Of a stretch of DNA of 64,000 nucleotides, positions 8,867 to 54,017 are shown piece by piece. The stretch is from positions 62,001 to 126,000 of the forward strand of contig CAIVGN010000072.1 in the NCBI GenBank assembly GCA_903905455.1. The letters are read 5' to 3'. How positions within the stretch are numbered: position 1 is the first letter of the stretch; each line of letters starts with the position of its first letter. The notes under the pieces were generated by a model. The model was not told the origin of the DNA. It worked only from the letters and a program-made list of their open reading frames with translations, and ran no database searches. The translations under genes and the position numbers were made by a program. Origin of the DNA: an uncultured Archangium sp. (GTDB lineage Bacteria > Myxococcota > Myxococcia > Myxococcales > Myxococcaceae).

Positions 8867-8901
8867 CTGCACACCACCCACCGGCCGGGCACGAAACACG
8901 G

Positions 8902-11394: not shown

Positions 11395-11441
11395 AGCCCG
11401 TGATGCGTGACAGCAAGGTGGGCTCCGTGGCAGGGGGCGGT

Positions 11442-12494
11442 ATGCGTTGGCTTTTCCTGCCGGTGGCGCTTCTCCTCCTCGGCGGCTGCGACCGCGGCCT
11501 GTTGACCCACTTTCCCCACCGCACGCACCTCGCGAAGATCGAGTGCGGCGGGCCCGGCCAGCCCCAGTGCCTGTCGTGCATCAGCTGCCACCAGGGCGAC
11601 ACCACCAAGCATGACGCCTGGGCCCAGCCGACCGCGCAGAGCTGCGCTGGCTGCCACCAGGACAAGAACACCGACGAGCTGTGGCAGCACTCGGTGCGCC
11701 CGGCCCTGGCCACCCTGCCCGCGGGAAAGAGCATCGTCTTCTCGCACGAGAACCACCTGAAGAAGGAAGGGCTCAAGGGCCAGTGCGTGAAGTGCCACGC
11801 CGGCGCCGTGGGCGTCGAAGGCGGCGCCCCGCTCTTCCCGCCCATGGAGACCTGCCTCGGGTGCCACGAGCACCGCGAGCAGTTCGAGACCAACACCTGC
11901 ACCAACTGCCACAAGACCAGGGACCTCCGCGGCCTGCAGCCGCAGTCGTTCCTCCCGCACGACGCGGTGTGGATCCGCCGGCACGGCGGCGAAGCGCGGG
12001 CCAACCCCGAGCGTTGCGCCACCTGCCACGCGCAGACCAACTGCGACACCTGCCACGACTCGAGCAAGCCCCTGGGCCCGGCGACCCGCAACCCCGAGGC
12101 GCTCGAGGCCAACTACGTGCACCGCTTCGACTTCCTCTCGCGGCACCCCATGGAGGCCCGCTCGCAGCCCGGCCAGTGCGCGACCTGCCACGCCAAGACC
12201 GAGTGCGACGCCTGCCACATCAGCCGCGGCGTCTCTGGCGCCGTCGCGGGCGGCCCCAGCCCGCACCCGCTCGCCTGGGCCAGCGGCCTGGGCACCGCGG
12301 CCAACCTGCACGGCCCGGCCGCGCGGCGGGACATCGGCTCCTGCGCCTCGTGCCACGACCAGGGCGCGGCGACGAACTGCGTGCGCTGCCACAAGGTGGG
12401 CGCCACCGGCGGCACGCCCCACCCCACGGGCTGGCGCAGCACCCAACCCACCACGGCCATCGAATGCGCCGTGTGCCACGGAGGTATGCCGTGA
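11442..12494 (+). CDS. 12-heme c-type cytochrome, lipoprotein
   Basis: 350 residues. ATG 11442 is chosen because it directly follows a GGGGGCGG ribosome site and opens a standard signal peptide MRWLFLPVALLLLGGC with lipobox LGGC; in-frame GTG 11391 and ATG 11403 are longer options. I count 12 CXXCH motifs. In several places two motifs lie 8-12 residues apart (CATCHAQTNCDTCH twice, CASCH…CVRCH), which resembles octa/decaheme cytochromes of the DmsE/MtrA type. It probably sits in or beneath the barrel encoded just upstream, accepting periplasmic electrons. It overlaps the next gene by GTGA. Confidence 0.92.
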   Translation: MRWLFLPVALLLLGGCDRGLLTHFPHRTHLAKIECGGPGQPQCLSCISCHQGDTTKHDAWAQPTAQSCAGCHQDKNTDELWQHSVRPALATLPAGKSIVFSHENHLKKEGLKGQCVKCHAGAVGVEGGAPLFPPMETCLGCHEHREQFETNTCTNCHKTRDLRGLQPQSFLPHDAVWIRRHGGEARANPERCATCHAQTNCDTCHDSSKPLGPATRNPEALEANYVHRFDFLSRHPMEARSQPGQCATCHAKTECDACHISRGVSGAVAGGPSPHPLAWASGLGTAANLHGPAARRDIGSCASCHDQGAATNCVRCHKVGATGGTPHPTGWRSTQPTTAIECAVCHGGMP

Positions 12495-39221: not shown

Positions 39222-39244
39222 GGGCACCGCGTGCGGCGGTGCCC
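39222..39244. terminator. Bidirectional hairpin after argG and the NrfJ-like gene
   Basis: A perfect 9-bp stem (GGGCACCGC / GCGGTGCCC) with a 5-base loop lies 14 bases after the argG stop and 8 bases after the stop of the convergent NrfJ-like gene. It closes the long minus-strand unit of locus 2. Confidence 0.7.
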
Positions 39245-39252
39245 GGGACGCC

Positions 39253-40050
39253 TTACTTCGCCTGCGCCTGGTCCAGCGAGACCGGCACCGGCCCCATGCC
39301 CACGTCCTTGTTGAGGGCCACGATGCCCTCCATCACCACGGCCTGGTCCTTCTTCACCTCGGTGGCGCTGATGCACAGCAGGTCGTCGGTCTTGTCCGCC
39401 GCCGCGCCCGTGCCGTCCTTCAGGTGCACGTACCAGGCGCCCTGCACGAGGCTGGCGCGGTCGACGGTGCCCTTCACCTTGACCTTGCGGCCACCGAGCA
39501 TCGCGCGCTCGCTGTAGACGTCGACGACGCGCAGGGTGAGCGCCTCGCCCGAGCCCGCGGCCTGCAGCGCGGCCTTCACCTCGGGGGTCGCGGTCGGCGC
39601 GGGGCCGGCCATGGGCACGGGCGCCGCGGCCTGGGCGGTGCGAGGCCCCGGTGCCGCGCCTTCGATGGAGCCGAACCACAGGCTGGCGAAGGTGCGGCCC
39701 AGCGAGGGGCTCGAGAAGTCGTGCATCTCGGTCTGCAGCATCACGCCGACTTCCTGGCCGGCCGTCAGCGAGGGCATGGACTCGACCGCCGCCCACTCGC
39801 CCGACTCCATGCGCAGGTAGGTGTACTGGGGAACCTGGATGACCTCGGCCACCTTGCCGCGGAGCACCTCCCCCTTGCCGGCGCCGGTGAGGGCGGCCGT
39901 GGGCGCCGGCTGCGCGAAGGGCATGGCCGAGGGCATGGCGACCGACGACGCGGGCGCGCTCGTGGAGGGGCCCGACGCGATGACGCTGGCACGGCCGACG
40001 ATGATACCGAGAACGAAGAGGATGACGCCGATGGCGATGGGCTTCGACAT
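39253..40050 (-). CDS. NrfJ-like exported protein
   Basis: 265 residues from ATG 40050. An uncleaved or signal-type helix at the N-terminus (about 5-26) is followed by an Ala/Pro/Ser linker. The first folded domain 'LRGKVAEVIQVPQYTYLRMESGEWAAVESM…' is the beta-barrel pattern of the NrfJ family, named for a gene in the Wolinella nitrite-reductase cluster. The second domain 'LTLRVVDVYSERAMLGGRKVKVKGTVDRAS…WYVHLKDGTG…LLCISATEV' is an OB-fold like those in cytochrome-related periplasmic proteins. It starts 34 bases after the stop of the preceding lipoprotein and so probably belongs to the locus 2 unit, which supports a respiratory link. Confidence 0.7.
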   Translation of the reverse strand: MSKPIAIGVILFVLGIIVGRASVIASGPSTSAPASSVAMPSAMPFAQPAPTAALTGAGKGEVLRGKVAEVIQVPQYTYLRMESGEWAAVESMPSLTAGQEVGVMLQTEMHDFSSPSLGRTFASLWFGSIEGAAPGPRTAQAAAPVPMAGPAPTATPEVKAALQAAGSGEALTLRVVDVYSERAMLGGRKVKVKGTVDRASLVQGAWYVHLKDGTGAAADKTDDLLCISATEVKKDQAVVMEGIVALNKDVGMGPVPVSLDQAQAK

Positions 40051-40084
40051 GCCCGTGGCTCTACCACCGCCGTATCGAATTACA

Positions 40085-40717
40085 TCAACGGCAGCTGAAG
40101 TCGGCCTGGCAGACCAGCCCGTCCTCACAGCCCGTGATGCTGCAGCCTTCGCTGCCCGGGGTTCCATCGGGCGGCTCGAGGTCGAGGTGCTGCTCGAAGA
40201 GCCCGGCCTCACCGACGCAGCCCGACACGGTCGTCTCGGGCAACCCGGGCACCACCACCCGCGCCTCGTAGCAACCGGCGGGCACGAAGAACTCGGCCTC
40301 GTTCTCGGGCGCCACGATGGGGCTCGTCAGGGGGAGGCCCACCAACGACACCGTGCCCCCGGTCAACACGTGCCGGCCGACCGACTGCACGTAGAGCTCC
40401 AGCTTGCCGGACCGCCTTCCTTCCAGCGCGCCCAGCTCGACGACGCTCGCGCCACCGACCACCACCGGCTGCCGGTGCGAGAGGGCCGCGTTGACCACGA
40501 TGAGGAGATCGACGGTGCCCAGCGGCACCGCCTCGAGCGTGAAGCGCCCGGCGGAGTCGGGGTGGGTGACCAGCGCGGGCTGGCCCACCACGGCCACCAC
40601 CGCGTTCGCGTCGGCGGCGACCAGCTGGCCACGAATGGTGCCCGTCTTGAAGGGCTCGTTCTCGAGCCCCCCGCAGGCCGACAGGGCACACAGGGCGATG
40701 GCGAGGCTTCGTTTCAT
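40085..40717 (-). CDS. Lipoprotein with carboxypeptidase-regulatory-like fold and Cys-rich tail
   Basis: 210 residues. ATG 40717 shares its last-read base with the stop of the caspase-like gene (TGATG). Signal peptide MKRSLAIALCALSAC ends in lipobox LSAC. Residues ~26-100 ('TGTIRGQLVAADANAVVAVVG…DSAGRFTLEAVPLGTVDLLIV') match the carboxypeptidase-regulatory-like (CarboxypepD_reg) beta-sandwich. The end carries 'CSITGCEDGLVCQADFSC', four Cys in a Dickkopf-like knot. It probably accompanies the caspase-like protein at the envelope. Confidence 0.72.
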   Translation of the reverse strand: MKRSLAIALCALSACGGLENEPFKTGTIRGQLVAADANAVVAVVGQPALVTHPDSAGRFTLEAVPLGTVDLLIVVNAALSHRQPVVVGGASVVELGALEGRRSGKLELYVQSVGRHVLTGGTVSLVGLPLTSPIVAPENEAEFFVPAGCYEARVVVPGLPETTVSGCVGEAGLFEQHLDLEPPDGTPGSEGCSITGCEDGLVCQADFSCR

Positions 40718-42357
40718 CAGAACCGATACCCAATGCCGGCCCACGCGCCGGCGAAGCCGAGAGTCTGCGTCACGCCATCCACCACCACCGCCGCCAGCAT
40801 CGCCTGCAAGCCGACCGACACTTCCCAGTGCGGCGTCAGGTGCACCGCGCCCCCCAGCAACAGGCCGGGCGTCACCGAGAAGGCCGATTGGGTGCCCTGG
40901 TACGCATCTAGAGAGAAGGACCGCTGGACCCAGAGCCCGGCCACGCGCGGGCCGACCCACACAGACACCCACCGCCAGTCCCACTGCCAGGCCAGCGAAA
41001 CTCCGACGAGAATGCTCGACCACCCGAAGGGCACGCCGGGGCTCTGCGGGGCGAGGCTCAGCGCACCCTGGCCCCCGAAGCCGCTCAGGTCGGCCTCCAC
41101 GGTGATGCGCTTGAGCAGCACGCGCTCGAAGCGCACCGCCACGCCGAGGGCCGGCGAGACGGGGAGCAGCTGCTGGCGGCTGACGCTGTCGATGAAGCCG
41201 AAGGCGCCCCCGGTGGCGGTCATCGAGAGGAAGGGGTCGGTGCGGCGCGCCAGCGAGTCGACGTCGAGGCGCTCGCCGGCCTCGAGGCGCACCTCTTCGG
41301 TGAGCAGCACCTCGTCGCCCTTGGCCAGCTCCACGTGGTGCGCGCCGGGGCCCACGGCGGCGCCGCCGGGCAGCTCGGCGCGCTCGACGCCGTCCACGCG
41401 CAGGGTGAAGCCGTCGAGGCGCGGCACGTAGGAGTAGAGCTCGGGCTGGCCGGTGCGCTTGACGTCGCCGGTCAGCACCACGGGGTCGGCGCCCACCTCG
41501 ACCATCTCGGCCGAGGGGCGCTGGCGGCCCTGCGAGAAGACCCAGGTGCGGCGGCGCGCGTAGTCGTGGGCCTCGGTGGCGGTGACGGCGCCGTCGCCGT
41601 TGCGGTCGCCCCCGCCCGCCAGCGCCTCGATGAGCCAGTGCGTGTACACGTCGTTCTGCAGCGTCTCGTCTTCGCGGGCGGTCTCGAGGAAGTCGCTGGC
41701 CGAGAGCACGATGGAGGCGCGCGAGACTTCTTCCAGGGGGCGCAGCGCGCCCTTGAGCGAGGCCAGCTCGGAGGCCACGTCTTCGGGCAAGAGCGACTTG
41801 CCGCTGCCCGAGTGGCAGGTGGCGAGCACCACCACCCGGCGGCGCGAGCGCGAGGCCAGCAGGCCGGCCGAGAGCGCGTCGATGGGCAGGGCCGTCTGGC
41901 TGACGCGGTGGAAGTCGGCGTCGGAGGTGACCAGGTAGCGCTCGAGCTCTCCGCGCGCGTCGCGGGCCAGGGTGCCGTGGGCCGACACGTAGAGCACCAC
42001 CACGTCTTCGGGCTGGGTGGCCAGGGCGGCGAGCCGGGCCACCGCCGCCTTGACGCCCTCGCGCGTGGTCTGGGCGGGGGTGGTGAGCGACTCGACGTGC
42101 GCGAAACGGCCGCGCAGCGGGTCTTGCAGCACGGCCGCGAGGTCCTTCACGTCTTTCTTCGCGTAGCGCAGCGGCTGCCAGTGCTCGTCGTGGCTCTGGG
42201 GGATGCCGATCAACAGCGCGAAGCGCCGGCCGGCGAAGGCCTGGCGCACCTCGTCGGCCGAGGCCTTCACGGTGACCAGGCCTCCCTTCTCGCCGGTCGG
42301 GTGCGCGCAGCCCATTGCCGCCGCAGCACCGACCAGGAAGAAGAGCGTGAGTCTCAC
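40717..42357 (-). CDS. Caspase-like (C14) protease with C-terminal barrel-like domain, lipoprotein signal
   Basis: 546 residues from GTG 42357, overlapping the anti-sigma-like gene by GTGA. A signal peptide with a possible lipobox (AAMGC) precedes a caspase/metacaspase p20 fold: 'RFALLIGIPQSH', 'YAKKDVKDLAAVLQDPLRG', catalytic His127 in VSAHG and Cys181 in ATCHSG. A 'DRNGDGAVTATEA' acidic loop within the domain resembles the Ca-binding/turn element often seen there. A PEGA-like small domain (~310-375) follows, and the last ~150 residues form alternating strands ending YRF, like an outer-membrane barrel or lipocalin-like domain. Export of a caspase fold fused to such an end is unusual. The target is unknown. 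Confidence 0.82.
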   Translation of the reverse strand: MRLTLFFLVGAAAAMGCAHPTGEKGGLVTVKASADEVRQAFAGRRFALLIGIPQSHDEHWQPLRYAKKDVKDLAAVLQDPLRGRFAHVESLTTPAQTTREGVKAAVARLAALATQPEDVVVLYVSAHGTLARDARGELERYLVTSDADFHRVSQTALPIDALSAGLLASRSRRRVVVLATCHSGSGKSLLPEDVASELASLKGALRPLEEVSRASIVLSASDFLETAREDETLQNDVYTHWLIEALAGGGDRNGDGAVTATEAHDYARRRTWVFSQGRQRPSAEMVEVGADPVVLTGDVKRTGQPELYSYVPRLDGFTLRVDGVERAELPGGAAVGPGAHHVELAKGDEVLLTEEVRLEAGERLDVDSLARRTDPFLSMTATGGAFGFIDSVSRQQLLPVSPALGVAVRFERVLLKRITVEADLSGFGGQGALSLAPQSPGVPFGWSSILVGVSLAWQWDWRWVSVWVGPRVAGLWVQRSFSLDAYQGTQSAFSVTPGLLLGGAVHLTPHWEVSVGLQAMLAAVVVDGVTQTLGFAGAWAGIGYRF

Positions 42358-43088
42358 GGGGTGACGTCCACCCGCAGCTTTGCCACGACCACCCCCGCGT
42401 CGCCACCTGCCTTGATGGCTTCGAGTGCGGTGTCCACCGACATCGGCACCTCGGCGGCCACCAGCCACACCGAGACCGGGCCGCGCTCGCCGGCCAGCGA
42501 GAAGCCCAGCAGGCCCTCGTCGCCGCGCTCGAGCTCTTGCGCGCCCTGCACCAGGCCCAGCTGCGTCAGCTCGACGGGCACGCCGTCACCGCGCTGAATG
42601 AACAGCCGCGCCGGGCCCGCCATGGGCGAGCGCACCTGGAACACCAGGGCCGCGGCCGACGACACCGCCTGGCCGTCGTCGATGGGCGTCAGCGCCCCGC
42701 GGGCGCCCTTCACCGCGGCGCGCAGCTCGAGGGCATCCTGGCCGCTGCCCTTGAGCCCGGTCCACGGGTCGACTGCCACCTGGGGCTCGGCGCGCCACAG
42801 CAGGCCGCCCGCCACCAGCAACCCCAGGGCGGCGGCCACGGCGAAGACCAGGGAGCGGCGCGCGGGCTGCTGCTGGCGGCGGCGGAAGCGGGCCCAGGCC
42901 AGCTCGTCGGTGGAGGGCGCGCGGGGGGCGAGGGACAGCAGCACCCGGTCGATGTCCCCGTCGGCGCCGGGCAGGGCCGCGAGGAACGCGTCGCAGGCCT
43001 CGCAGCCAGAGGCGAGGTGCTCGAGCAGCGCGTCGTCGCGGGTGGCCTGCAGCGCGGTCCAGCGCGCGGCGTCGAGATGCGGGCTCAC
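42354..43088 (-). CDS. Anti-sigma-factor-like membrane protein
   Basis: 244 residues from GTG 43088, overlapping the sigma-factor stop (GTGA). The N-terminal cytoplasmic part has 'LLEHLASGCEACDAFLAAL', an H-x4-C-x2-C arrangement like the zinc anti-sigma (zf-HC2) motif. One membrane helix (about 82-99) and a periplasmic beta-rich domain follow. Known proteins of this design hold an ECF sigma factor inactive until a signal outside releases it. Gene order and coupling support that it controls the sigma factor directly upstream. Confidence 0.8.
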   Translation of the reverse strand: MSPHLDAARWTALQATRDDALLEHLASGCEACDAFLAALPGADGDIDRVLLSLAPRAPSTDELAWARFRRRQQQPARRSLVFAVAAALGLLVAGGLLWRAEPQVAVDPWTGLKGSGQDALELRAAVKGARGALTPIDDGQAVSSAAALVFQVRSPMAGPARLFIQRGDGVPVELTQLGLVQGAQELERGDEGLLGFSLAGERGPVSVWLVAAEVPMSVDTALEAIKAGGDAGVVVAKLRVDVTP

Positions 43089-43696
43089 GGTTCCCACCTT
43101 CGCTTGAGCACGTCGAGCATCAGCTGCCGGCGAATGCGGGCGCGAAAGCGCTCGAGGCGCATGGTCACCGCGCTCTTGCCCACGCCCATGCGCTCGGCGA
43201 TCTCCCGGGCCGAGAGCTCGCCCTCGACGTAGAACAGGCGCACGGTCTCCTTCTCGGGACCCTCGGGCAGCGACTCGATGAGGCGCCGCACCATGGAGAT
43301 GTCGAGCTCGAGCCGGGCCGATTCCGGGATGAGCTCGGCGGCGTCGTCTTGTTCCTGCGCGTAGCGCTCGCGCACCTCGTGGCGGCTGGCCTTGCGCGCG
43401 AGCGCCGAGAGGCCCCGGTTCCGCGCGATGGACAGGAGCCAGCCATCGAAGGCCTCGGGCGACTTGAGGTTGCCGACGGCCCGGAAGGCGCGAGTGAAAA
43501 CTTCCTGCACGAGGTCCTCCCTTTCGTCAGCGTCGAGCTGTGCAAACCCCTCGAGCAGGCGCAACACGCCGGGCCGCCATGTCAGGTACACCTGACGGCA
43601 GGCAGCCTGGTCCCCCCGCTTCACGCCATCCAACAGGCGGACGAGTTCTTCTCGGTCCGTCACGGTCAAGGACTCACTGAATGCGGCGCCGGCCAC
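43085..43696 (-). CDS. ECF-type RNA polymerase sigma factor
   Basis: 203 residues from GTG 43696; a start at 43663 (GTG) is possible. Region 2 is seen at about 22-100 ('YLTWRPGVLRLLEGF', 'DEREDLVQEVFTRAFRAVGNLKSPEAFDGWLLSIARN') and region 4 at about 135-195 ('LIESLPEGPEKETVRLFYVEGELSAREIAERMGVGKSAVTMRLERFRARIRR', a helix-turn-helix). It lies only 13 bp after the outer-membrane barrel gene of locus 2 and is followed without a gap by its anti-sigma-like partner. Its targets may include the locus itself, which is inference. Confidence 0.92.
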   Translation of the reverse strand: MAGAAFSESLTVTDREELVRLLDGVKRGDQAACRQVYLTWRPGVLRLLEGFAQLDADEREDLVQEVFTRAFRAVGNLKSPEAFDGWLLSIARNRGLSALARKASRHEVRERYAQEQDDAAELIPESARLELDISMVRRLIESLPEGPEKETVRLFYVEGELSAREIAERMGVGKSAVTMRLERFRARIRRQLMLDVLKRRWEP

Positions 43697-43709
43697 GGGG
43701 CACGGGCAC

Positions 43710-45380
43710 TCAGAAGCTGCCTCCGAGCTGAAACCCCACGCTGCCCAGGGGGGGCGCCGCCGACGCCAGGGGCAACCGGCCCATGAACACCACGCGACCC
43801 TTGAGGAATCTCCACGGCGCGACCTCCAGCGCCACGGAGGTGCCCAGCTCGTTGCCGGCCAGCCCGGCGCTGCCGGTGACGGCCTGCTGCTGGAACCAGC
43901 TGGCCCGGGTCACGAGGCGGAAGAAGCCCTGGGCGTTGACGCCTACCTGGAAGTACCCGTGCCGGCCGCGCACCCAGCCGAACTCCTCGAGGTACCCGAG
44001 GCTGACCCCCAGCGGCAGGCCGGCGATGCGGGGCACGGACACTTCCGGCCCCACGCGGCCCTGCACCAGGCCCGAGTCGAAGTCCGAGGCCAGGCCGCCC
44101 TGGGCGGCGACGAAGAGCCACGCGGTGGGCTGCCACACGGCGCTCAGGTCGGAGTGCAGCGCGCGCTGGCCCGGCGAGACGGTGCCCACCTCGACCAGGC
44201 CGGTCAGCGGGAGCCCGCGGTAGCGCACGGCGCCGTTGAGCCGCAGGGTCTCCATCGGGCGCCAGCCGACGTCGAGGCGCGCGGCGTCGATGCCGGCGGC
44301 GGCCTGCGTCTGGCCGAAGCCCAGCTCGACGGCGAGTGCGCCGTCGAGGTCCGCGCCCTTCCACAGGTTGGCGTTGACGGCGACCTCGGCCCGGCCCCCC
44401 AGCGTGTCGCGCAGCGACCAGCCGGCGCGCACCCCGAGCTGCACCAGGGTGGCGGTGGCGCCGGTGCCCGTCGAGAAGCGCGCCTTGGCGAAGGCACCCG
44501 CGGCCCACTGCGAGGGGGTGATGGTCAGCCGCGCCGCGTCGGGCAACAGGCCGCCGTAGGCGCCCAGCTCGAAGCCGTCGCCGAAGCGCCACGCGCCCTG
44601 CGCGCCGTCGATCACCATCAGCCCCGAGGTCGCGCGCAGCCAGGTGCGGCCGATGGCGCCGGAGATGGGCACGTCGGCGCGGCGGAAGCCGATCTCCAGC
44701 TGGCGCACGAGGAGCACCGGGGACTTCTGGTAGAAGGTGCGGGTGGCGTCGGGCCGCGCGCTGAAGTTGAGCGCGGTGATGTCGGCGCTCGCCCGCAGGC
44801 CGCGCCAGATCTCCACGTCGTAAGCGAGCAGGTCGAGCCGCTGCACGCCGAAGGGGCCCCCGGACAGGCCCCCGTAGGTGGTGTGCGAGAAGAGCGCCTC
44901 GACGCGCGGGCCCACGTTGCTCGACGAGCCGGCGGTGTCGAAGTCGCGCAGCTTCCAGTTCACCTCGTCGAAGTGCGCGGCGCGGCGGGCCAGCTCGGCC
45001 TCGGTGGGCAGCGCCACGGTGGCCACGGGGTTGTTCTCGGCGACGCGGCCGACGGCGAAGCGATCTCCCAGGCGCAGGCCGGGGCCCTCGCAGCGGGCGA
45101 AGTGCTCCGAGACGGCGGCCACCGTGCACTTGCCGGCGGGCTTTCCGCCGCGCACGAAGGTCAACGCCTGGCCCGGGGCGAGGCCGTCGAAGGCGCCGCG
45201 GTTCAGGAAGGCCGCGTCAGCGGTCACCGAGCTGACCTCGCCGGTGGCGCTGAGCACCACGCCCTTCGAGGCGGTGGCGGCCTTGGTGGTCTTGGTGGCC
45301 TTGACCTTCTTGGCGACGGGCTTCTTCGCCCAGCCGGGCGCGGCCAGCACCAGCATCACCACCAGCCAGCGCGCGCTCAC
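43710..45380 (-). CDS. Predicted outer-membrane beta-barrel of locus 2
   Basis: 556 residues from GTG 45380, overlapping the 10-heme gene by GTGA. The signal peptide ends at PGWA/KK. A Lys/Thr/Ala-rich linker and a small beta domain (about 38-115, 'GEVSSVTADAAFLNRGAFDGLAPGQALTFV') precede ~420 residues of alternating strands with terminal 'GFQLGGSF', a typical barrel end with final Phe. By position it is the porin of a conduit whose cytochromes are encoded directly upstream. The short periplasmic domain before the barrel distinguishes it from the locus 1 barrel. Confidence 0.75.
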   Translation of the reverse strand: MSARWLVVMLVLAAPGWAKKPVAKKVKATKTTKAATASKGVVLSATGEVSSVTADAAFLNRGAFDGLAPGQALTFVRGGKPAGKCTVAAVSEHFARCEGPGLRLGDRFAVGRVAENNPVATVALPTEAELARRAAHFDEVNWKLRDFDTAGSSSNVGPRVEALFSHTTYGGLSGGPFGVQRLDLLAYDVEIWRGLRASADITALNFSARPDATRTFYQKSPVLLVRQLEIGFRRADVPISGAIGRTWLRATSGLMVIDGAQGAWRFGDGFELGAYGGLLPDAARLTITPSQWAAGAFAKARFSTGTGATATLVQLGVRAGWSLRDTLGGRAEVAVNANLWKGADLDGALAVELGFGQTQAAAGIDAARLDVGWRPMETLRLNGAVRYRGLPLTGLVEVGTVSPGQRALHSDLSAVWQPTAWLFVAAQGGLASDFDSGLVQGRVGPEVSVPRIAGLPLGVSLGYLEEFGWVRGRHGYFQVGVNAQGFFRLVTRASWFQQQAVTGSAGLAGNELGTSVALEVAPWRFLKGRVVFMGRLPLASAAPPLGSVGFQLGGSF

Positions 45381-46261
45381 GGCAGGCCCTCGTTCTGGCG
45401 GTGGCACTCGGCGCACTTCCTGGCGACGTACGAGTAGCCCATGGCGTTGGGCTTGTTGGCGTGCAGGGCGTCGGTCTCGCTGACCGGGCCGGCGCCGCCG
45501 CCGTTGGTGTGGCAGCTGACGCACAGCGTGGCGGTGTTGGTGCGGCAGGTGCTCACCGGGGGGGTGGTGGCGCTGTGGCAGCCCAGGCAGGGCACCCCGG
45601 CGTGGGCACCGGCGCTGATGGGGAAGCAGGCGTCGTGGGTGACGAAGCGCGCCGGGGTGAAGCTCAGGGCCCCGTGGCACTGCTGGCAGCGCTGGGTGTC
45701 GAGCCCCAGGGCCAGGTGGTCGACGGCCTTGCCCACGGTGCGCAGGGCGGCGTCGTGGTGGCAGGCGGCGCAGTCCACGGTGGCGCGGCTGAAGCGGCGC
45801 TCGCGGGCCTCGCCGTGACACTCGACGCAGGGAATGGCGGCGTGGGCCCCGAAGAGCGGGAAGTTGGTGCGCCGGTGCGCGTCGGCGTCGAAGCGCGAGC
45901 GCCAGTCGGTGGTGTCGTGGCAGCTCTCGCAGCGGGCGCCCAGCTCGCCAGAATGCACGTCGCGGTGGCAGCCCACGCAGGTGCGCGGCAGGGGCACCGA
46001 GAAGTCGGTCACGTGGCAGGCCTTGCACGAGGTGCGCTCGTGCCGGCCGGTCAGGGAGAAGCCGGTGCGCTCGTGGTTGAAGCGCACCTCGCTCCACGAC
46101 GAGGTGGCGTGGCAGGCCGAGCACTGGGTCACGCCCTCGTGGCCCGGCTTGCTGAGCTTCGACAACGACTTGATCACGTTGGCCATGCCGGCCTTCGGGA
46201 CGTCGGCCTGGCCCGCGTCGGGCGCGGCGGCCACCACCAGCATCAACAACAGCGCCGTCAT
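45377..46261 (-). CDS. 10-heme c-type cytochrome
   Basis: 294 residues from ATG 46261, overlapping the 20-heme gene by ATGA. It has a signal peptide (MTALLLMLVVAAA) and no lipobox, so it is periplasmic or inserted in the barrel. I count ten CXXCH motifs over residues ~45-290. Length and heme number equal MtrA/DmsE-type decaheme cytochromes that fill outer-membrane porins, and the next gene encodes a barrel. Pairing with that barrel is a strong inference from gene order; direct homology to MtrA cannot be tested by eye. Confidence 0.92.
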   Translation of the reverse strand: MTALLLMLVVAAAPDAGQADVPKAGMANVIKSLSKLSKPGHEGVTQCSACHATSSWSEVRFNHERTGFSLTGRHERTSCKACHVTDFSVPLPRTCVGCHRDVHSGELGARCESCHDTTDWRSRFDADAHRRTNFPLFGAHAAIPCVECHGEARERRFSRATVDCAACHHDAALRTVGKAVDHLALGLDTQRCQQCHGALSFTPARFVTHDACFPISAGAHAGVPCLGCHSATTPPVSTCRTNTATLCVSCHTNGGGAGPVSETDALHANKPNAMGYSYVARKCAECHRQNEGLP

Positions 46262-48015
46262 GGCTCAAACCCCTTGAACGCGCCCTTGTGGAAGTCGGAG
46301 TGACACCCCTCGCAGGTCTGCGGCAGCGGCCGGTACTGCACCGCCATCACCTTCGCGGCCACCGGCACCTTCTTGTGGCACGCCTCGCACTTCGCCTTGC
46401 CGTGCTGCCCGTCGAGCAGGAACTGGGTGAAGGGCGGCTCGTGCACGAAGAGCACCTTCTTCCAGGCCTCGGTCACGTGGCAGGTGTCGCAGGCCTTCTT
46501 GCCGAACTGGCCGGCGTGCTCGTCGAGGTGGCAGCCGCGGCAGTCGCTCTCCAGCGGCTTGTAGCGCACCGGTTCCTGGGGGCTGGGCGCGACGTGGCAC
46601 TTCTCGCACTTCACCTTTTGGTGGGCGCCGGTCAGCGGGTACTTCGAGTCTTTCTGGTGGTCGAAGCGCAGCGCGGTGAAGGACGACACCTGGTGGCAGG
46701 TCTCGCAGCGCGTGTCCTTGAACTGGCCCTTGTGCAGGTCGGTGTGGCAGCTGTCGCAGCGCTCGGTGGGCTTGGTGAAGTCGAAGAGGGCCAGGCTGAA
46801 GAGCTCCTGGCGCTTGCGCTTCTTCAAGTCGGCGAGCACCGGCTTGGGGATCTTCGCCTTGAGGGCCGGCGTCGCGGGGTGGCAGCTGGCGCAGGGCACC
46901 ACCTGGTGCGCGCCCTCCAGCGGGTACTTCGTCCTGGCGTGCTCGGGCAGGCTGAACTTCGCGGGCACGAAGCCCTGCTCGCTGTGGCAGGTGGTGCAGT
47001 CGGGGGCCTTGCCGTTGACCGAGAGCTGCCCCTCGTGGGCGTCGGGGTGGCAGGTGTTGCAGGTCTCGTGGGCGAGGCCCTTGAACTTGGCGGGCACGCC
47101 GGGGAACGGGCCGTGGCAGCTGCGGCACTCGACGTCGAGGTGCGCGCCCTTCAAGGGGAACTTGGTCTTCTCGTGGAACTCGCGTTCCTTGCCCGCGTTG
47201 CGCAGGATGTTCCAGCCTTCGACCACGTGGCAGCTCTGGCAGCGCAGGCCGAAGCGGGCCTCGTGCGGGTCCTTGTGGCAGTCGAGGCAGCTGCGGTGCT
47301 CGACGGGGGCGAAGCGCAGGAAGGTCTCTGACTTGGGCGCGGGGAAGCCGTGGGCCTCGGTGTCCTTTTCCGAGTCGTGGCAGGCGGTGCACTTCACCTT
47401 GATGTGCTTGCCCTTGAGCGGGTAGTCGGTGTCGTCGTGGTTGAAGCCGGGGGTGGGCTTCCAGGCCTTCTCCACGTGGCAGTACTCGCAGTCTTCCTGC
47501 TGCTGGCCGCGGTGCTCGTCGAAGTGGCAGTCGGGGCAGCCCGAGCCCAGGCCCAGGCGGGTGCCGGGGCGCTTCTCGAGGAGCTTGAGGGCGGTGGTCC
47601 ACACGATGAGCCGCTTCTCGTGGCACGCGCTGCACTTGGCCTCGGTGTGCGCGCCCTTGAGCGCCCAGCCGGTGCGCAGGTGGTTGAAGCCCTTCTCGCC
47701 GCCGGCGCCCCACTCGATGAGGTTGGAGGCGAGGCCCTGGTGCTCGCGGTGGCAGGTCTCGCAGTTGCGCTTCTCGGCGGCGATGTGCCCGTGGAGCCCC
47801 AGGCCCTTGCCCAGGCGCGGCTGCAGCTCCTGGTGACACGACAGGCAGGTCTCCTGGCTCAGTTGCCCGCCGGCCGGGTGACACTTGGTGCACTGCGAGA
47901 GCCCCTCGAGCGAGGTGTGGGGCTTGCTCAGCTCGCCGGGAGAGAACAGGTCGGCGCGCGCGGACCCGGCGCACACCACGGCCCAGAGGACCAACCACCA
48001 CGACCGAAAGCTCAC
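46258..48015 (-). CDS. 20-heme c-type cytochrome
   Basis: 585 residues from GTG 48015, overlapping the flavoprotein fusion stop by GTGA. The signal peptide (…LVLWAVVCAGSARA/D) has no lipobox. There are twenty CXXCH motifs. A recurring ~45-residue unit 'FNHDxTxYPLKGxHxxVKCxxCH' appears at least six times (for example 'FNHDDTDYPLKGKHIKVKCTACH', 'FDHQKDSKYPLTGAHQKVKCEKCH'), so the chain grew by repeat of a two- or three-heme unit. It is probably a periplasmic wire between the inner-membrane fusion protein and the decaheme/barrel pair. Confidence 0.93.
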   Translation of the reverse strand: MSFRSWWLVLWAVVCAGSARADLFSPGELSKPHTSLEGLSQCTKCHPAGGQLSQETCLSCHQELQPRLGKGLGLHGHIAAEKRNCETCHREHQGLASNLIEWGAGGEKGFNHLRTGWALKGAHTEAKCSACHEKRLIVWTTALKLLEKRPGTRLGLGSGCPDCHFDEHRGQQQEDCEYCHVEKAWKPTPGFNHDDTDYPLKGKHIKVKCTACHDSEKDTEAHGFPAPKSETFLRFAPVEHRSCLDCHKDPHEARFGLRCQSCHVVEGWNILRNAGKEREFHEKTKFPLKGAHLDVECRSCHGPFPGVPAKFKGLAHETCNTCHPDAHEGQLSVNGKAPDCTTCHSEQGFVPAKFSLPEHARTKYPLEGAHQVVPCASCHPATPALKAKIPKPVLADLKKRKRQELFSLALFDFTKPTERCDSCHTDLHKGQFKDTRCETCHQVSSFTALRFDHQKDSKYPLTGAHQKVKCEKCHVAPSPQEPVRYKPLESDCRGCHLDEHAGQFGKKACDTCHVTEAWKKVLFVHEPPFTQFLLDGQHGKAKCEACHKKVPVAAKVMAVQYRPLPQTCEGCHSDFHKGAFKGFEP

Positions 48016-50222
48016 GTGAAGATCCACCGATAGCCAAGGAAGAGAGACACGCCGATGTGCGCGGCGATCAGCACCACGAGCACCACGGCGAGCACCACGT
48101 GAAACACGCGCCAGGTGGCCAGCAGCACCTTGAGCGAGCGGAAGAAGGTCACCTGCGCCTGCAACCGGCGCAGCTTGTGGAACGAGTCGGTGAAGTCGTG
48201 GGCGTGGTGCGGGCTGGGGAACATCGAGCGCACGTGGAGCAGGTGCCGCGCGTCGGACACGCGCTGCACCGGCAGGTGGAGGAAGAAGCGCAAGAGCGAC
48301 TTCTGCGTGGGCCGGGTGACGGCCGAGGCGATGAGGGTCTCGACCTCGGCGGGTGACGAGAGCGACGCCGCCGCCCCGCCCAGCCGCTCGCTCAGGCGCT
48401 GCCAGCGCCGCGAGAGCTCGTCGAGCTCGCCTTCCTTGCCCTCGCCGCTGGGCACGATGCCGTAGATGAAGCGACCCACGATGCCGGTGAGCACCACCAC
48501 CGACAGCGACAGGGCGGTGAGCGTGGCCAGCTGGTTCTTCGACTGGAACGCGGCGTGGAAGACGATGACCAGGGGGCTCAAGAAGCCGACGAACTGGTGG
48601 AAGGTGAGCCAGGTGCGGATGGTGCTGAAGCCCTTGAGCCGCTCCCAGCGCTTGCGCACCGCGTAGATGAAGTTCGAGAGCATCACCACGGTGCTCACGA
48701 TGCCCACCCCGTGACCCCAGGGGCCGGCGGGCTTCAGGAAGCGGTGCGCGGGGTGCAGCAGCCGCTCGGGCTGGGCGAGCCGGTAGTAGTCCCAGCCCAC
48801 GACCGCGAGCATGGCCACGGTGAGGATGCCCAACACGAAGAGCGCGAAGGACAGGCGCCGGTGCGACTTCTCTTTCTCGTCCACCACCGCGCTGCCGCGC
48901 TTGGCCTTGGCCCCCAGCGACTCGCCGTGGAGCTTGGTGAGCCCCACGCCCATCTTGCTCAGGAACTCGGTGGGCACCTCGCCGCCGAGGCAGGCGATGA
49001 TGAAGTCGTTGGGCAGGTCGATGAGCTTGCCGCCCTTTTCGAGGGACACGCTCGTGGCGGTGACCTGCTTGATGTTCGAGCCCATGAAGGCGAACACCCG
49101 GCCCTGCTCGGTCAGCTCCTTGAAGCGGCGCTTGTTGGCCTCGCGGGCCTTGCCGAACTCGGGCTGGCGGTAGCTCAGGGCCACCTCGGCGTCGCTCTCT
49201 TCGGCGATCTGGATGGCGGCCTCGAGGGCCGCGTCGCCGCCGCCGACCACCAGCACGCGCGCGCCCTCGTACTGCTGGGCGTCGATGAGGCGGTAGGTGA
49301 CCTTCTCGAGCTCCTCGCCGGGCACGCCCATCTTGCGGGGGCTGCCGCGGCGGCCAATGGCGAGCACCACCTTCTTGGCGCGCAGGGTGCCCTTGGTGGT
49401 GAAGATGGTGAAGTCGCCGTCGTTGCCGTCGATGCGCTCGACCTTCACGCCGGTGTTGACCCGCACGTCGGCCTTCTTGCAGGCCTCGACCCAGCTCTCG
49501 AGCAGCTGTTCCTTCGAGATGAGCGGGGCCCCGAACTTCCCGAAGTAGGGCAGCTCCACGCGCTCGGTCATCACGACCTTCTGGCGCGGGTAGTGCGAGA
49601 TGGTGCCGCCGAAGCTCTCCTGCTCCACCACGCGGAACTTGAGGCCCTGTTCCTTGAGGCCCAGGGCGGTGGCGAGGCCCGAGGGCCCGGCGCCGACCAC
49701 CACCACGTCGTCGATCTCCCCCTGCTGGCCCTTGAGCTGCGAGCCGAGGTGCCGGGCGCACTGCAGGCCCTGGGTGATGGCGTTCTTGATGAGGCCCATG
49801 CCGCCGAGCTCACCGACGATGTGCACCCCGGGGCGGCTGCTCTCGAAGACGTCGCTGAGCTCGGGCAGCTCCACGCCGCGCTTGGACGAGCCGAACACGA
49901 GGGTGATGGCGTTGACCGGGCATTCCACCGAGCACTTGCCGTGGCCGATGCAGGCCGAGGGGTTGATCAGCGCGGCCTTGCCGTCGACCACGCCCAGGAT
50001 GTCGCCTTCCGGGCAGACCGCGGTGCACGAGAGGCTGCCGATGCACTTGTCGGGGTCGATGACGGGGTGCAGCGTGGGCGCCTCGGCACGGCCGTCCTTG
50101 TGCACCTGTGCCAGGGCCAGAGAGTCGGCGGCCTCCCGCTTCGCGCGGCTCCGCGTCATGAACCACGCGATGCCCGCGCCGAGAAAGACGAGGCCCAACA
50201 ACAAGAGAAGATCGATGCTCAT
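48012..50222 (-). CDS. Ferredoxin-flavoprotein-cytochrome b fusion, inner-membrane electron input
   Basis: 736 residues from ATG 50222. Order: N-terminal membrane helix (3-22); two iron-sulphur motifs (Cys60/66/70 with Pro, Cys91/97/101 with Pro), each CX5CX3CP, so the second Cys of the usual CX2CX2CX3CP is Ser or His; an FAD-binding thioredoxin-reductase-like domain (GAGPSG 177-182) with an NAD(P)-binding site (GGGDAA 327-332); then a membrane part with helices at about 458-476, 504-521, 541-558, 566-590 and 702-730 carrying His in FHQFVGF, FHAAF, FHVVLAV and AAHIGV as likely heme b ligands. It could move electrons between NAD(P)H, quinone and the 20-heme cytochrome. It heads the locus 2 unit. 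Confidence 0.88.
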   Translation of the reverse strand: MSIDLLLLLGLVFLGAGIAWFMTRSRAKREAADSLALAQVHKDGRAEAPTLHPVIDPDKCIGSLSCTAVCPEGDILGVVDGKAALINPSACIGHGKCSVECPVNAITLVFGSSKRGVELPELSDVFESSRPGVHIVGELGGMGLIKNAITQGLQCARHLGSQLKGQQGEIDDVVVVGAGPSGLATALGLKEQGLKFRVVEQESFGGTISHYPRQKVVMTERVELPYFGKFGAPLISKEQLLESWVEACKKADVRVNTGVKVERIDGNDGDFTIFTTKGTLRAKKVVLAIGRRGSPRKMGVPGEELEKVTYRLIDAQQYEGARVLVVGGGDAALEAAIQIAEESDAEVALSYRQPEFGKAREANKRRFKELTEQGRVFAFMGSNIKQVTATSVSLEKGGKLIDLPNDFIIACLGGEVPTEFLSKMGVGLTKLHGESLGAKAKRGSAVVDEKEKSHRRLSFALFVLGILTVAMLAVVGWDYYRLAQPERLLHPAHRFLKPAGPWGHGVGIVSTVVMLSNFIYAVRKRWERLKGFSTIRTWLTFHQFVGFLSPLVIVFHAAFQSKNQLATLTALSLSVVVLTGIVGRFIYGIVPSGEGKEGELDELSRRWQRLSERLGGAAASLSSPAEVETLIASAVTRPTQKSLLRFFLHLPVQRVSDARHLLHVRSMFPSPHHAHDFTDSFHKLRRLQAQVTFFRSLKVLLATWRVFHVVLAVVLVVLIAAHIGVSLFLGYRWIFT

Positions 50223-50372
50223 GGTTCCGAACGCGCCGAAGGGCGCTTACGCGAAGGGGCGCAGTATTGGGCATCTAGGCCACTTCGGCGGAAGAAAAAG
50301 CCCTGTAGGTATCCAATCCCGAAAAATTTGCGCCTCGCGTGGCCGGTAAATGACGCTGGTGGTCTAAAACCG
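50223..50372. promoter_or_regulatory. Divergent intergenic region of electron-transfer locus 2
   Basis: 150 bases separate the flavoprotein fusion (leftward) from the 29-heme lipoprotein (rightward). The middle (about 50298-50335) is markedly AT-rich (runs GAAGAAAAAG and GAAAAATTT), the best place for promoters. I could not identify a clear ECF, sigma-70 or sigma-54 box. Both units must be controlled from here. Confidence 0.5.
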
Positions 50373-53300
50373 ATGGCTCCCATGAGAACGACTCTTCCGA
50401 TCAGCACGGCGCTGTTCTCCTACCTCTTCATCGCGGGCTGCTCGTCGACCCCCACGGACCCGAAATTGCCGGCGACGGTGAACGCGGCCAACCACCGCTG
50501 GTTCCCCATCTCGACGGGGGCGATGCACGAGTACGGGAAGACGATGGGCCCCGACGGGGCGTTGACCTGCGACGGCTGTCACCGGCCGGGCGCCGAGAGC
50601 TTCACCGCGGTGCGCTGCGATCAATGCCACAAGCACACCGAGGCCATCACCCAGCGCCTGCACCTGGGCATTCCCAGCAGCTTCACCGTCGACACCAGCG
50701 CCGTGAGCGACCCCGACCTGAAGGCGGAGCTCCGCGGCGCGAGCTGCTTTGGCTGCCACCCCACGGGGGAGAAACGCCCCTTCAGCCACACCCTGATCAC
50801 CAGCGAATGCGCCCAGTGCCACGCGGTGGACAACGCCTTCGCGGCGCTGCCGAAGGCGGGCTTCACCCACCGCGACGTGGGCGCGGCGGACTGCGCTGCG
50901 TGCCACGTCACGACCGCGTGGTCGACGGTGAGCGCGGCCCCGTCGAACGTGTCCGATCCGGCGCATGACCTGACGGTGACGGGCCTCTTGCCGACCTTCA
51001 CGGGCACCACCATCTCTCGCGTGTCTGCCCTGGCGCAGACGCTGCCCATGCCCATGAATCACCTGGCGACGTCCATCGACGCGGGGGTGCTCACCGACTG
51101 TGCCGCCTGTCACCAGGAAGCCAACACGGGCGTCTACTTCCCCGGCCTGCTGCACTCGTCGCTGGCCAACGTCGGCCAGGCCCAACCTGCGCAGTGTGCG
51201 GAGTGCCACGCGCGGTCGGTGCCCCTGGGCTTCGTCGGGGCCTTCGCCACCGCGCCGGCGCGGACGCCCGCGACGGGCGAGATGCGGCACGACGCCGTGG
51301 CGTGGGCGAACGGCGCCCCCGGCGCGACCCGGATCGTGACCCAGGACTGTGCGACCTGCCATCACACCCCCAGCCCGCTGCTCGCCGCGACCTGGCGGGT
51401 CGTCGAAGTCGACGGCGGGCCGGCGCAGTTCCACGCCGCCCTCACGGCGGCCGCCCAGGCCCAGCCCACGTCGTGCCTCGACTGCCACGCGAACTCTCGC
51501 CCGGTGGCTGCGTTGACTTCGATGAACGCCGCGCTGCCGGCGGGAATGACCTTCGACCACGGCAATGGCGACGCGCTCCAGGACTGCGTGCTGTGCCACA
51601 GCTCCACCAGCGCCTGGAGCGGCGGCAAGTTCCACCTCGTGGGCAGTGCGGCGCCCGCGAGCTGCGTGGGGTGCCACGAGGCGAAGCGCCCGACCTCGAC
51701 CACCGGGTGGACGAGCACCACCTACCAGGCCTCGCCTTTTGACTACGGCACCAACGCCCAGGGCATCACCCACGGCGGCGGCGAAGACTGCGCCGTGTGC
51801 CACGGCGGCAGCACCCAGACCTGGGCCGGCGGCCACTTCCCCCACGGCGTCGGCACGCTGGCCACGCAGTCGTGCAGCGCCTGCCACACCAGCCAACGCC
51901 CGACGGCCCCGGTGCCGGGGGTGGGCAACAACTTCAACCACACGCTCAATGGCACCGGCGACTGTCGCGCGTGCCACCAGGCGACCGTGACCGCCGGTCG
52001 CTACGTCGACCTGAACCCCATCCCGGGCGGAGATTGGAAGGGCGGCAAGGAGTACCCCGGTGACGTGGTGGTGACCTCGCCCACCCAGTTCATCGCGCTC
52101 CAGACGTGGACGCTGCAGCGCAACGCCGCTCGCTTCGTGACGGGCATGACCACGCAGAACGCGACGCTGTTCAACGCGATGCTGCACACCTCGACGGCCA
52201 TCCCCGCGGCGTTGTTCCCCGGGCCGGCCAACGCCCCGGACAACAGCACCTGCTTCCACTGCCACACCAACGTCGCGGGCACGGTCACCTCGTTCGCCGA
52301 CGGCAAGTACCACGCCGTGCTCACCGACGCGGGCGTGCCCCAGCCGACGGCCCGGTGCCTCGATTGCCACGAGCAGATGCGGCCCGACATGATCGTCGAG
52401 AAGTCGGCCTCGGTGCTCCAGCCCATGGACCACTCGGCCACCTTCACCGCGCCGGTGACCATCGCCGGCCAGACCGTCAGCGGGGTCGCGACCCTCGACT
52501 GTTCGGTCTGCCACGCATCGCCGGGCAGCACCTGGGGCGACGGCAAGTTCCACGCGAAGATCAGCACCGCCACGCCCGCCGACTGCGTGACCTGCCACTA
52601 CCCGCTGATGGCCAGCCCCCAGGCCGACGTCACCACCGGCACCACCTTCGCCATGAAGCACCGCTCGACCCAGGTGACGGTGCAGAAGTGCGAGACCTGC
52701 CACACCACCGCGCTCTCGAAGAGCGCCATGGCCTTCACCCCCAGCACCGGCGCGGCCCTGTGGAAGACCGGGACCCTGCACCCCCACGTCGCGATGCAGC
52801 CGGCCAGCTGCGTCGAGTGCCACGCCCTGTCCGAGCCGACGATGGCCACGCAGGGCACCACCACCTGGACCTTCACCACCGGCGGCACGGCGACCAACAG
52901 CGCCCAGTGGATGAGCCACCCCATGGCCGACGTCGCGGGGAAAGACTGCGCGGCCTGCCACCTGGCCGACGCGAAGCCCACCGGCAGCGCCTGGAACAAG
53001 GGCACCGACCTGCACGCGAAGGTCCCCAGCCCCACGGGCTGCGCCGCGTGTCACGGCACGAGCAACGGCCGCGGCACCGTCATCGGGACCAACAACAACC
53101 TGCCGAGCGGGCTCACCAACTCCCAGGTGACCACCACCGCCGGCCCCTTCCCCGGGGTGAAGGACCAGCTGAACCACGCCGACATCAACGTCACCGCCCG
53201 CGACTGCAGCTTCTGCCACACCCAGAAGGGCACCTCGACGGTCGCCGGCGTCCAGGGCCAGGAATGGCGCCAGGCCACCTTCCACAAGAACTTCAGCGCC

Positions 53301-54017
53301 GCGTCACCGCTGGTGATGAACACCACCACCGGCCGCTGCAGCACCTGCCATTTCAACCTGAAGCCCGGCGCCACCTTCGCGGCCTTCGACCACGCGACGT
53401 TCACCAGTGCCTCGGGCACCCCGGACTGCAGTTCCTGTCACTCGTGGCCGGGCACCAGCGCCATGACCCCCAACTGGCTGGGCGCGGCGGCGATGCCGGC
53501 CTTCATCGCGGTGGGTGGATTCACCATCTCGCAGCCCCCTGCGACCGCGGCCAACACGCTGCAGACGGGCATCGCGAACCTGCCGCATCCCGCGGTCGCC
53601 ACTGGCGTGCCGTGCACCGCCTGCCACGCGCAGGCGGCCGGTGGGCGCCACGCGCTGGGCTACGATCACCTCTCGTCGCTGGCCAGCACGCGCTGCGGCG
53701 CCTGTCACGAGGCCGGCAGCGACCTCGTCGCGACGCCCTGGAATGGCGCGACCACCGAGGCCACGGGCGCAGGCGATACGCGGCCCTTCACCCTGCCCAG
53801 CGTCAGGGCCACCTACAAGGGCAACACCGCGACGGAGACCTACCCGAAGCACTTCTTCCCCATCGACTGCAAGGAGTGCCACCTGGTCCCCGCTGGCAAC
53901 GGCCTCACCACCACGGGCACGGTCTACCAGGCCGCCTGGAAGTTCCCCCACACGCAGGCGAAGATGACCAACCCGTCAACGTGCCTGACGTGCCACCCGG
54001 GCGGCGTCCCCAACTAG
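50373..54017 (+). CDS. 29-heme c-type cytochrome, lipoprotein
   Basis: 1214 residues from ATG 50373; ATG 50382 would also work. The signal peptide ends LFIAGC (lipobox). I count 29 CXXCH motifs spread over residues ~68-1205, on average 40 residues apart and therefore much looser than in the other cytochromes here. The spacers are Thr/Ser/Ala-rich and beta-like. A repeated motif 'FNHxx…DCxxCH…WxGGKFH' is visible. Long, lipid-anchored, loosely spaced multiheme proteins of this kind are candidates for surface-exposed or filament-forming cytochromes. It is divergent from the locus 2 unit, so co-regulation is likely. Confidence 0.93.
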   Translation: MAPMRTTLPISTALFSYLFIAGCSSTPTDPKLPATVNAANHRWFPISTGAMHEYGKTMGPDGALTCDGCHRPGAESFTAVRCDQCHKHTEAITQRLHLGIPSSFTVDTSAVSDPDLKAELRGASCFGCHPTGEKRPFSHTLITSECAQCHAVDNAFAALPKAGFTHRDVGAADCAACHVTTAWSTVSAAPSNVSDPAHDLTVTGLLPTFTGTTISRVSALAQTLPMPMNHLATSIDAGVLTDCAACHQEANTGVYFPGLLHSSLANVGQAQPAQCAECHARSVPLGFVGAFATAPARTPATGEMRHDAVAWANGAPGATRIVTQDCATCHHTPSPLLAATWRVVEVDGGPAQFHAALTAAAQAQPTSCLDCHANSRPVAALTSMNAALPAGMTFDHGNGDALQDCVLCHSSTSAWSGGKFHLVGSAAPASCVGCHEAKRPTSTTGWTSTTYQASPFDYGTNAQGITHGGGEDCAVCHGGSTQTWAGGHFPHGVGTLATQSCSACHTSQRPTAPVPGVGNNFNHTLNGTGDCRACHQATVTAGRYVDLNPIPGGDWKGGKEYPGDVVVTSPTQFIALQTWTLQRNAARFVTGMTTQNATLFNAMLHTSTAIPAALFPGPANAPDNSTCFHCHTNVAGTVTSFADGKYHAVLTDAGVPQPTARCLDCHEQMRPDMIVEKSASVLQPMDHSATFTAPVTIAGQTVSGVATLDCSVCHASPGSTWGDGKFHAKISTATPADCVTCHYPLMASPQADVTTGTTFAMKHRSTQVTVQKCETCHTTALSKSAMAFTPSTGAALWKTGTLHPHVAMQPASCVECHALSEPTMATQGTTTWTFTTGGTATNSAQWMSHPMADVAGKDCAACHLADAKPTGSAWNKGTDLHAKVPSPTGCAACHGTSNGRGTVIGTNNNLPSGLTNSQVTTTAGPFPGVKDQLNHADINVTARDCSFCHTQKGTSTVAGVQGQEWRQATFHKNFSAASPLVMNTTTGRCSTCHFNLKPGATFAAFDHATFTSASGTPDCSSCHSWPGTSAMTPNWLGAAAMPAFIAVGGFTISQPPATAANTLQTGIANLPHPAVATGVPCTACHAQAAGGRHALGYDHLSSLASTRCGACHEAGSDLVATPWNGATTEATGAGDTRPFTLPSVRATYKGNTATETYPKHFFPIDCKECHLVPAGNGLTTTGTVYQAAWKFPHTQAKMTNPSTCLTCHPGGVPN

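Follow-up and report, generated by a model that had tools for sequence, protein, structure and literature searches.

In the RseA/DegS/RpoE system, a membrane anti-sigma factor is cut outside the membrane as the first step of regulated proteolysis. In type III-E CRISPR systems, a caspase-fold protease relieves the inhibition of an extracytoplasmic function (ECF) sigma factor by cleaving its inhibitor (PMC10028731). ECF54 sigma factors have no anti-sigma factor, and CHAT, subtilase and carboxypeptidase proteins are found nearby (PMC8999054). The locus described here joins genes of these kinds to an electron conduit. It is located in a stretch of 64,000 nucleotides from an uncultured Archangium sp. 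(positions 62,001 to 126,000 of contig CAIVGN010000072.1), which we call the window.

Nine open reading frames (ORFs) of the minus strand, g1 to g9, follow one another at positions 39253-50222 of the window, and our ORF check bore out the order given in a preliminary description of this region. Genes g1 to g4 form module A, a porin-cytochrome-type electron conduit (flavo-cytochrome b, 20-haem cytochrome, 10-haem cytochrome and putative barrel). Genes g5 to g8 form module B, which encodes an ECF sigma factor, a membrane anti-sigma factor, a lipoprotein caspase with an eight-strand barrel and a second lipoprotein. The gene that turned out to be the most important, c29h, is absent from the preliminary description; it is located on the plus strand, divergent from g1, and encodes a 29-haem lipoprotein cytochrome. 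The best explanation of our results, which we favour as the probable one on the sequence evidence given below, is that the module B sigma factor would drive its own operon, c29h and, mostly, the conduit, and that its release from the anti-sigma factor would be triggered by the caspase.

Results

A conserved promoter motif upstream of the sigma factor gene and of c29h

We surveyed the sequences upstream of 88 module B sigma genes and based the counts on the 74 loci whose identity to g5 was 49% or more. The motif GTGGCC-N17-GTC was present before 56 of these 74 genes, compared with a mean of 1.1 and a maximum of 4 in shuffled sequences. The spacer was 17 nucleotides long in 54 of the 56 motifs, the motif ended about 8-12 nucleotides 5' of the start codon, and the sequence between the two halves was not conserved. 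This conserved dyad before the sigma gene, known from sequence only, resembles the ECF-type promoter of an autoregulated gene. In five distant module B loci (L181-L185), GAGAC-N18-GTC stood in place of GTGGC(C)-N17-GTC, without a shift in register; the distance to the GTC was unchanged, as expected for a diverging sigma specificity with a change of the -35 element.

A position weight matrix (PWM) was built from 30 non-redundant sites, excluding the window and its congener. Its top two matches in the 64-kb window were located before g5 (18.4 bits; 43671..43696, minus strand, at the g4/g5 junction) and before c29h (15.1 bits; 50339-50364, plus strand). The second of these sites ends 8 nucleotides 5' of the ATG at 50373, where c29h starts (50373..54017, plus strand; the start is at 50373 or 50382). 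The g5 gene itself (43085..43663, minus strand) had been given the start codon GTG 43696, which left a gap of 13 bp after g4. This GTG is the first half of the conserved hexamer GTGGCC (43696-43691), so we corrected the start to GTG 43663, which is favoured by the relatives and leaves a gap of 46 bp. A tightened pattern occurred three times in the 8.6-Mb genome, one occurrence being the c29h promoter, and another tightened pattern gave 20 matches, most of them inside genes. The intergenic tightened matches other than those of g5 and c29h (L269, L273 and L274) precede unrelated genes.

Because loose matches to the motif are common, we tested its conservation across seven genomes of three genera that carry close relatives of both modules (G000, G003, G018, G009, G030, G141 and G144). 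The exact dyad was found before c29h in 7/7 genomes, before g1 in five (G003, G009, G030, G141 and G144) and before g5 in all those that were readable; the three genera are related and these counts are not independent events. Among the other genes of the examined loci, the dyad preceded 1 of 285. The copies sit in differing gene layouts and their flanking sequences are dissimilar. In G141, the motif was kept although the conduit and module B are on different long contigs, which indicates that the link between sigma factor and conduit acts in trans. The regulatory loop suggested by the preliminary description, which ties the sigma factor to the conduit, is thus strengthened whether the modules are neighbours or not, and these sequence comparisons make a control of the conduit by the g5 sigma factor, acting in trans, probable. 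The c29h protein, which has 29 CxxCH motifs and matches Cytochrome_C7 and similar families, is likely to be the surface terminus or partner of the g1-g4 conduit.

In conduit genomes without module B, the dyad was found neither before g1 (0/8) nor before c29h (0/3), and eight further conduits of the order had no dyad before g1. Two close genomes of the Anaeromyxobacter family (G045 and G067; loci L073 and L285) carry the dyad before g1, and no dyad was found before g5 of their module B, which was checked in one of the two.

The single dyad before another gene belongs to G003, where it precedes a gene for a MopE-type copper-/metal-binding lipoprotein located beside g1 (L204:5155-7488, minus strand). 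This motif (L204:7521-7546) scored 19.6 bits and is the strongest copy of that locus. Judging by its promoter region, the MopE-type lipoprotein of G003 is likely to be another surface protein of the sigma regulon. Other multihaem proteins are encoded in the window at 7328-8872 (minus strand) and 11391-14098 (plus strand), one with 23 and two with 12 CxxCH motifs; the promoter motif was not found before these genes.

Distribution of modules A and B

Sixty, and later 145, genomes of the same order were searched with the barrel and the caspase, and the gene orders of about 90 fetched stretches were compared; several to many of these genomes are draft metagenome-assembled genomes, and genes were called by a simple codon-model script. 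Caspase orthologues were found in 84 of the 145 genomes and the g4 barrel in 38, while about 20 genomes had both. The order g1-g2-g3-g4 was preserved in about 17 genomes.

The order of ECF, anti-sigma, caspase and lipoprotein genes was preserved in both Myxococcaceae and Anaeromyxobacteraceae, in most cases with no conduit. Carriers include Corallococcus, Archangium, Pyxidicoccus, Hyalangium, Anaeromyxobacter and Myxococcus xanthus, the last with two copies (L170 and L171). No conduit was found nearby at most of the 74 named module B loci, and g8 was retained downstream of g7 in most of them. Complete Anaeromyxobacter genomes have both modules, more than 1 Mb apart. As judged by gene order, module B is an independent unit, and it appears to be an old cell-envelope signalling module of myxobacteria.

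Modules A and B were adjacent in three layouts only among the genomes compared. In the window and its congener G003, module B is located behind module A on the same strand. In G009 and G144, the modules are divergent and separated by one or two genes. In G023 (L072:5956-9740), module B is directly upstream of module A on the same strand, c29h is divergent from the sigma gene and the sigma factor is strongly diverged, with only about 35% identity.

A second, diverged copy of module B was observed in many Myxococcus and Corallococcus genomes (L165-L171 and similar loci). The upstream regions of these copies lack GTGGCC-N17-GTC, and several of them share a GTGACTCCTTCCCT-like stretch; their promoter specificity is probably different. 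Two module B clusters with Myxococcus-like neighbours were also found in the BNCN01 record 'Comamonas sp. KCTC 72670' (L150 and L167), a genome that is probably mislabelled. In Anaeromyxobacter oryzisoli SG63 (L173), the anti-sigma and caspase genes are separated by a called reading frame of about 1815 aa.

Sigma factor, anti-sigma-like protein and caspase

The g5 product matched TIGR02937 (74.8 bits, 5.9e-21; cutoff 42.9) and Sigma70_r2 (41.4 bits), while its match to Sigma70 r4_2 was slightly below the cutoff. It has sigma70 regions 2 and 4 and no region 3, the composition of an ECF sigma factor.

The g6 product (42354..43088, minus strand) has one membrane span and an invariant cytoplasmic H-x4-C-x2-C, which is one residue longer than the zinc-binding anti-sigma (ZAS) signature H-x3-C-x2-C, and no match to it was found in Pfam or NCBIfam. 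Its position, topology and linkage predict an anti-sigma-like protein. Immediately outside the membrane it carries an invariant G-x-K-G (Lys113-Gly114, 42752-42747) in surroundings that are poorly conserved.

The g7 product (40717..42357, minus strand) had been described as an exported caspase-fold protease, and this is supported by a lipobox, an intact His/Cys dyad and a structural model. It scored 43.5 bits with Peptidase_C14 (cutoff 21.4), and His127 and Cys181 are conserved. Its AlphaFold2 model has a confident caspase fold (predicted local distance difference test, pLDDT, of 87), a small beta domain and a C-terminal eight-strand barrel. A sequence search of the PDB with the caspase profile gave no match and a fold comparison was needed; among solved structures, the first part came closest to the MALT1 paracaspase (Z 24), caspases and metacaspases, and the C-terminal part to OmpA, NspA, Ail and OmpX. 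The outer-membrane barrel of g7 and the lipoprotein encoded by g8 (40085..40717, minus strand), which has a carboxypeptidase-regulatory-like domain (weak CarboxypepD_reg match), are candidates for signal sensing; the signal may be redox or envelope stress, as the preliminary description suggested.

A near-invariant Lys-Gly was also found in g7 (Lys24-Gly25, 42288-42283, minus strand), in the linker behind the lipobox cysteine (Cys17), where residues 18-27 are disordered (pLDDT below 50). A Lys-Gly after the anchor was present in 56 of 62 anti-sigma factors, past the membrane span, and in the linker of 65 of 76 caspases, the misses being mostly truncated or wrongly extended reading frames. In the controls, it was present in 1/94 other lipoproteins and 2/18 other single-span proteins. 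The Lys-Gly beside the membrane span of g6 is, by this pattern, a candidate cleavage site. Orthocaspases cleave after basic residues (PMC6426788), so the simplest conjecture is a cut by the caspase at Lys|Gly in g6, and perhaps also in the caspase itself.

Conduit genes, gene junctions and g9

The first gene of module A, g1 (48012..50222, minus strand), encodes a fusion of a 2x[4Fe-4S] ferredoxin, an FAD/NAD(P) oxidoreductase and a cytochrome b-like membrane part. The 20-haem periplasmic cytochrome (g2, 46258..48015) and the 10-haem cytochrome (g3, 45377..46261), both on the minus strand, have 20 and 10 CxxCH motifs, respectively, in agreement with the haem counts of the preliminary description; g2 matched Cytochrome_C7 and similar families. 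Searches of Pfam and NCBIfam, with which the families of the nine proteins were assigned, likewise upheld its calls for g1 (Fer4 and Pyr_redox_3), g2 and g3 (multihaem cytochromes), g5 (Sigma70_r2/ECF) and g7 (Peptidase_C14). The membrane part of g1 gave a weak ferric-reductase-like match, and g4, g6 and g9 gave no family match. The barrel claimed for g4 (43710..45380, minus strand) had long antiparallel strands in its AlphaFold2 model, but the confidence of this model was low (pLDDT of 47) and no database family matched; together with the synteny with g1-g3, the model makes an outer-membrane barrel plausible. The multihaem cytochromes and the synteny of a conduit are thus present, while the barrel comes from a low-confidence model only.

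The junctions GTGA, ATGA, GTGA, GTGA, GTGA and TGATG were found as described, and so was the spacing of 34 bp ahead of g9; the 13-bp gap between g4 and g5 was not. The terminator proposed near 39222 did not hold up: the GC hairpin there, of 9 bp, lacks a T run and has an unremarkable folding energy (z of -1.0). Terminator-like matches in the region were at chance level (4 observed, 4.1 expected), and no sigma-70 promoters were found in the region. The g4/g5 junction had been singled out as the place where an internal promoter or terminator would speak against a single unit; the conserved promoter motif was found there, but no strong terminator was found inside the run.

The g9 gene (39253..40050, minus strand) encodes a membrane-anchored protein and neighbours argG. 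The block g1-g8 is preserved in the congener G003 and wholly missing from the congeners G004 and G005, which indicates that it comes or goes in this genus. In G004 and G005, g9 is located beside argG, so it is a local neighbour rather than a member of the unit. We also considered g9 as a component of the conduit; it follows the barrel in G018, yet it stands by argG in congeners that have no conduit, and this assignment was not supported.

Discussion

According to the explanation that we favour, g5 would recognise GTGGCC-N17-GTC promoters and drive its own operon, g5-g8. In this lineage its targets would also include c29h and, in the majority of close relatives, the g1-g4 operon. Since the sigma factor would act as a diffusible regulator, the neighbourhood of modules A and B would be helpful and not required. 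The membrane protein g6 would keep the sigma factor inactive until a disturbance of the envelope activates the outer-membrane-anchored caspase g7. The activated caspase would then cleave the invariant Gly-x-Lys|Gly of g6, close to the outer face of the inner membrane, and perhaps free itself at the corresponding Lys|Gly that follows its lipid anchor. The sigma factor would then be released by general proteolysis, which would lead to more module B and more surface cytochrome.

Several observations weigh against this explanation. The window was among the sequences in which the motif was first noticed, even if it was left out of the PWM test. Loose matches to GTGGCC-N17-GTC are frequent, with 351 in the 8.6-Mb genome, or about 1 per 24 kb. 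The g1 gene of the window has only a degenerate copy, GTGGCC-N17-GCC (50258..50283, minus strand), and that of G018 has none; the control of the conduit operon proper may therefore vary. G008 has a conduit and a motif-bearing module B, yet no motif was found before its g1, and in G023, where the modules are side by side and the sigma factor is diverged, the motif is absent. Finally, to cut g6, the outer-membrane-anchored g7 would need to extend across to the inner membrane, unless it is set free beforehand.

The part played by the caspase is proposed from sequence only. It is possible that the outer-membrane caspase is a signal-sensing protease that cuts the anti-sigma factor at Gly-x-Lys|Gly and also itself, and that the release of the ECF sigma factor turns the conduit on. 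It may instead be an effector under the control of the sigma factor, for example a cell-death or envelope-remodelling protease; this, too, is a possibility to be taken with reserve. An effector would agree with the place of the caspase gene, which follows the sigma gene within one operon, with the role in cell death for which bacterial caspase homologues are often discussed, and with the location of the two proteins, the caspase being of outer-membrane type and the anti-sigma factor in the inner membrane. However, a protease and its substrate would better account for two features: the caspase gene is strictly linked to the anti-sigma gene and directly follows it, and both proteins carry, close to their membrane anchors, a Lys-Gly that has no other explanation.

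It is unlikely that a different regulator acts at the dyad and controls both module B and the surface cytochrome. GTGGCC differs from the textbook ECF -35 element (GGAAC), and the motif is one of sequence comparison. On the other hand, its location about 8-12 nucleotides before the start, its spacing of 17 and its GTC element fit ECF promoters, the hexamer is altered in distant loci with diverged sigma factors, and the lack of conservation between the two halves points the same way.

The preliminary description had proposed a single nine-gene operon, transcribed from a promoter of g1, and had named a nine-gene order shared by relatives as a check of it. Such an operon is improbable, even with stop/start overlaps at most junctions, no strong internal terminator, a block g1-g8 that is kept or lost as a whole in the congeners and read-through from g4 into g5 that remains conceivable. 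A conserved ECF-type promoter motif stands within the run at g4/g5, module B is solitary in most genomes and its linkage to the cytochromes is exceptional, g9 is a neighbour of argG, and overlaps are common within each module of dense GC-rich genomes. Synteny in about 100 loci did not conserve the nine-gene order, and we rejected the nine genes as a conserved cluster in favour of two modules and a bystander. That modules A and B are merely adjacent and the c29h motif a coincidence is very unlikely, since, however common loose matches are and however many of a tightened subset lie inside genes, the motif recurred at the same place in all seven genomes and before a single one of the 285 other genes, in differing layouts and with non-conserved flanks.

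In the literature searched, we found nothing linking an ECF sigma factor and a caspase with myxobacteria or electron conduits, no ECF sigma factor described as the direct switch of a porin-cytochrome conduit, and no function for the core module of sigma factor, membrane inhibitor and outer-membrane caspase that is widespread in myxobacteria. The parts are known separately; what appears to be new, from the gene orders and motifs compared here, is the connection of an envelope module of ECF sigma factor, anti-sigma factor and caspase to an electron conduit. If the caspase does release the sigma factor, caspase-gated sigma signalling governs extracellular respiration. The core module occurs in most Myxococcaceae; one of its carriers, the genetically tractable M. 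xanthus, has two copies. The promoter motif makes the regulon predictable from sequence, and the Lys-Gly site offers a one-residue test of bacterial caspases as signalling proteases rather than death enzymes.

Comparison with known systems

The type III-E CASP system (Csx29 TPR-CHAT/Csx30/CASP-sigma; Craspase) also encodes a caspase-fold protease together with an ECF sigma factor and an inhibitor. Here, however, the protease g7 has a lipid anchor and an outer-membrane-type barrel, the inhibitor g6 is membrane-bound and carries a zinc-finger-like motif, the predicted targets are respiratory surface cytochromes and the proposed cleavage is deduced from sequence. Neither a Cas7-11 effector nor a TPR-CHAT protease was found among the nine genes in Pfam and NCBIfam, which places the locus outside type III-E. 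With ECF54, compared here by gene neighbourhood, the locus shares a caspase-fold protein near an ECF gene; it differs in the membrane anti-sigma gene that is strictly linked here.

By analogy with RseA/DegS/RpoE, g6 would be a single-pass anti-sigma factor with a cytoplasmic sigma-binding part and an envelope part, whereas the protease would be of caspase type instead of DegS, and no RseB-like gene was recognised in the cluster. Orthocaspases and MALT1 share with g7 a caspase fold with a His/Cys dyad, while g7 has in addition a lipid anchor and a fused eight-strand outer-membrane barrel. As in MtrABC and the Geobacter Omb-Oma-Omc conduits, a periplasmic multihaem cytochrome, a barrel candidate and a large surface multihaem lipoprotein are encoded together; the conduit of the window differs from these by its 20-haem and 10-haem proteins, by its ferredoxin-FAD-cytochrome b fusion and by a barrel without a family match.

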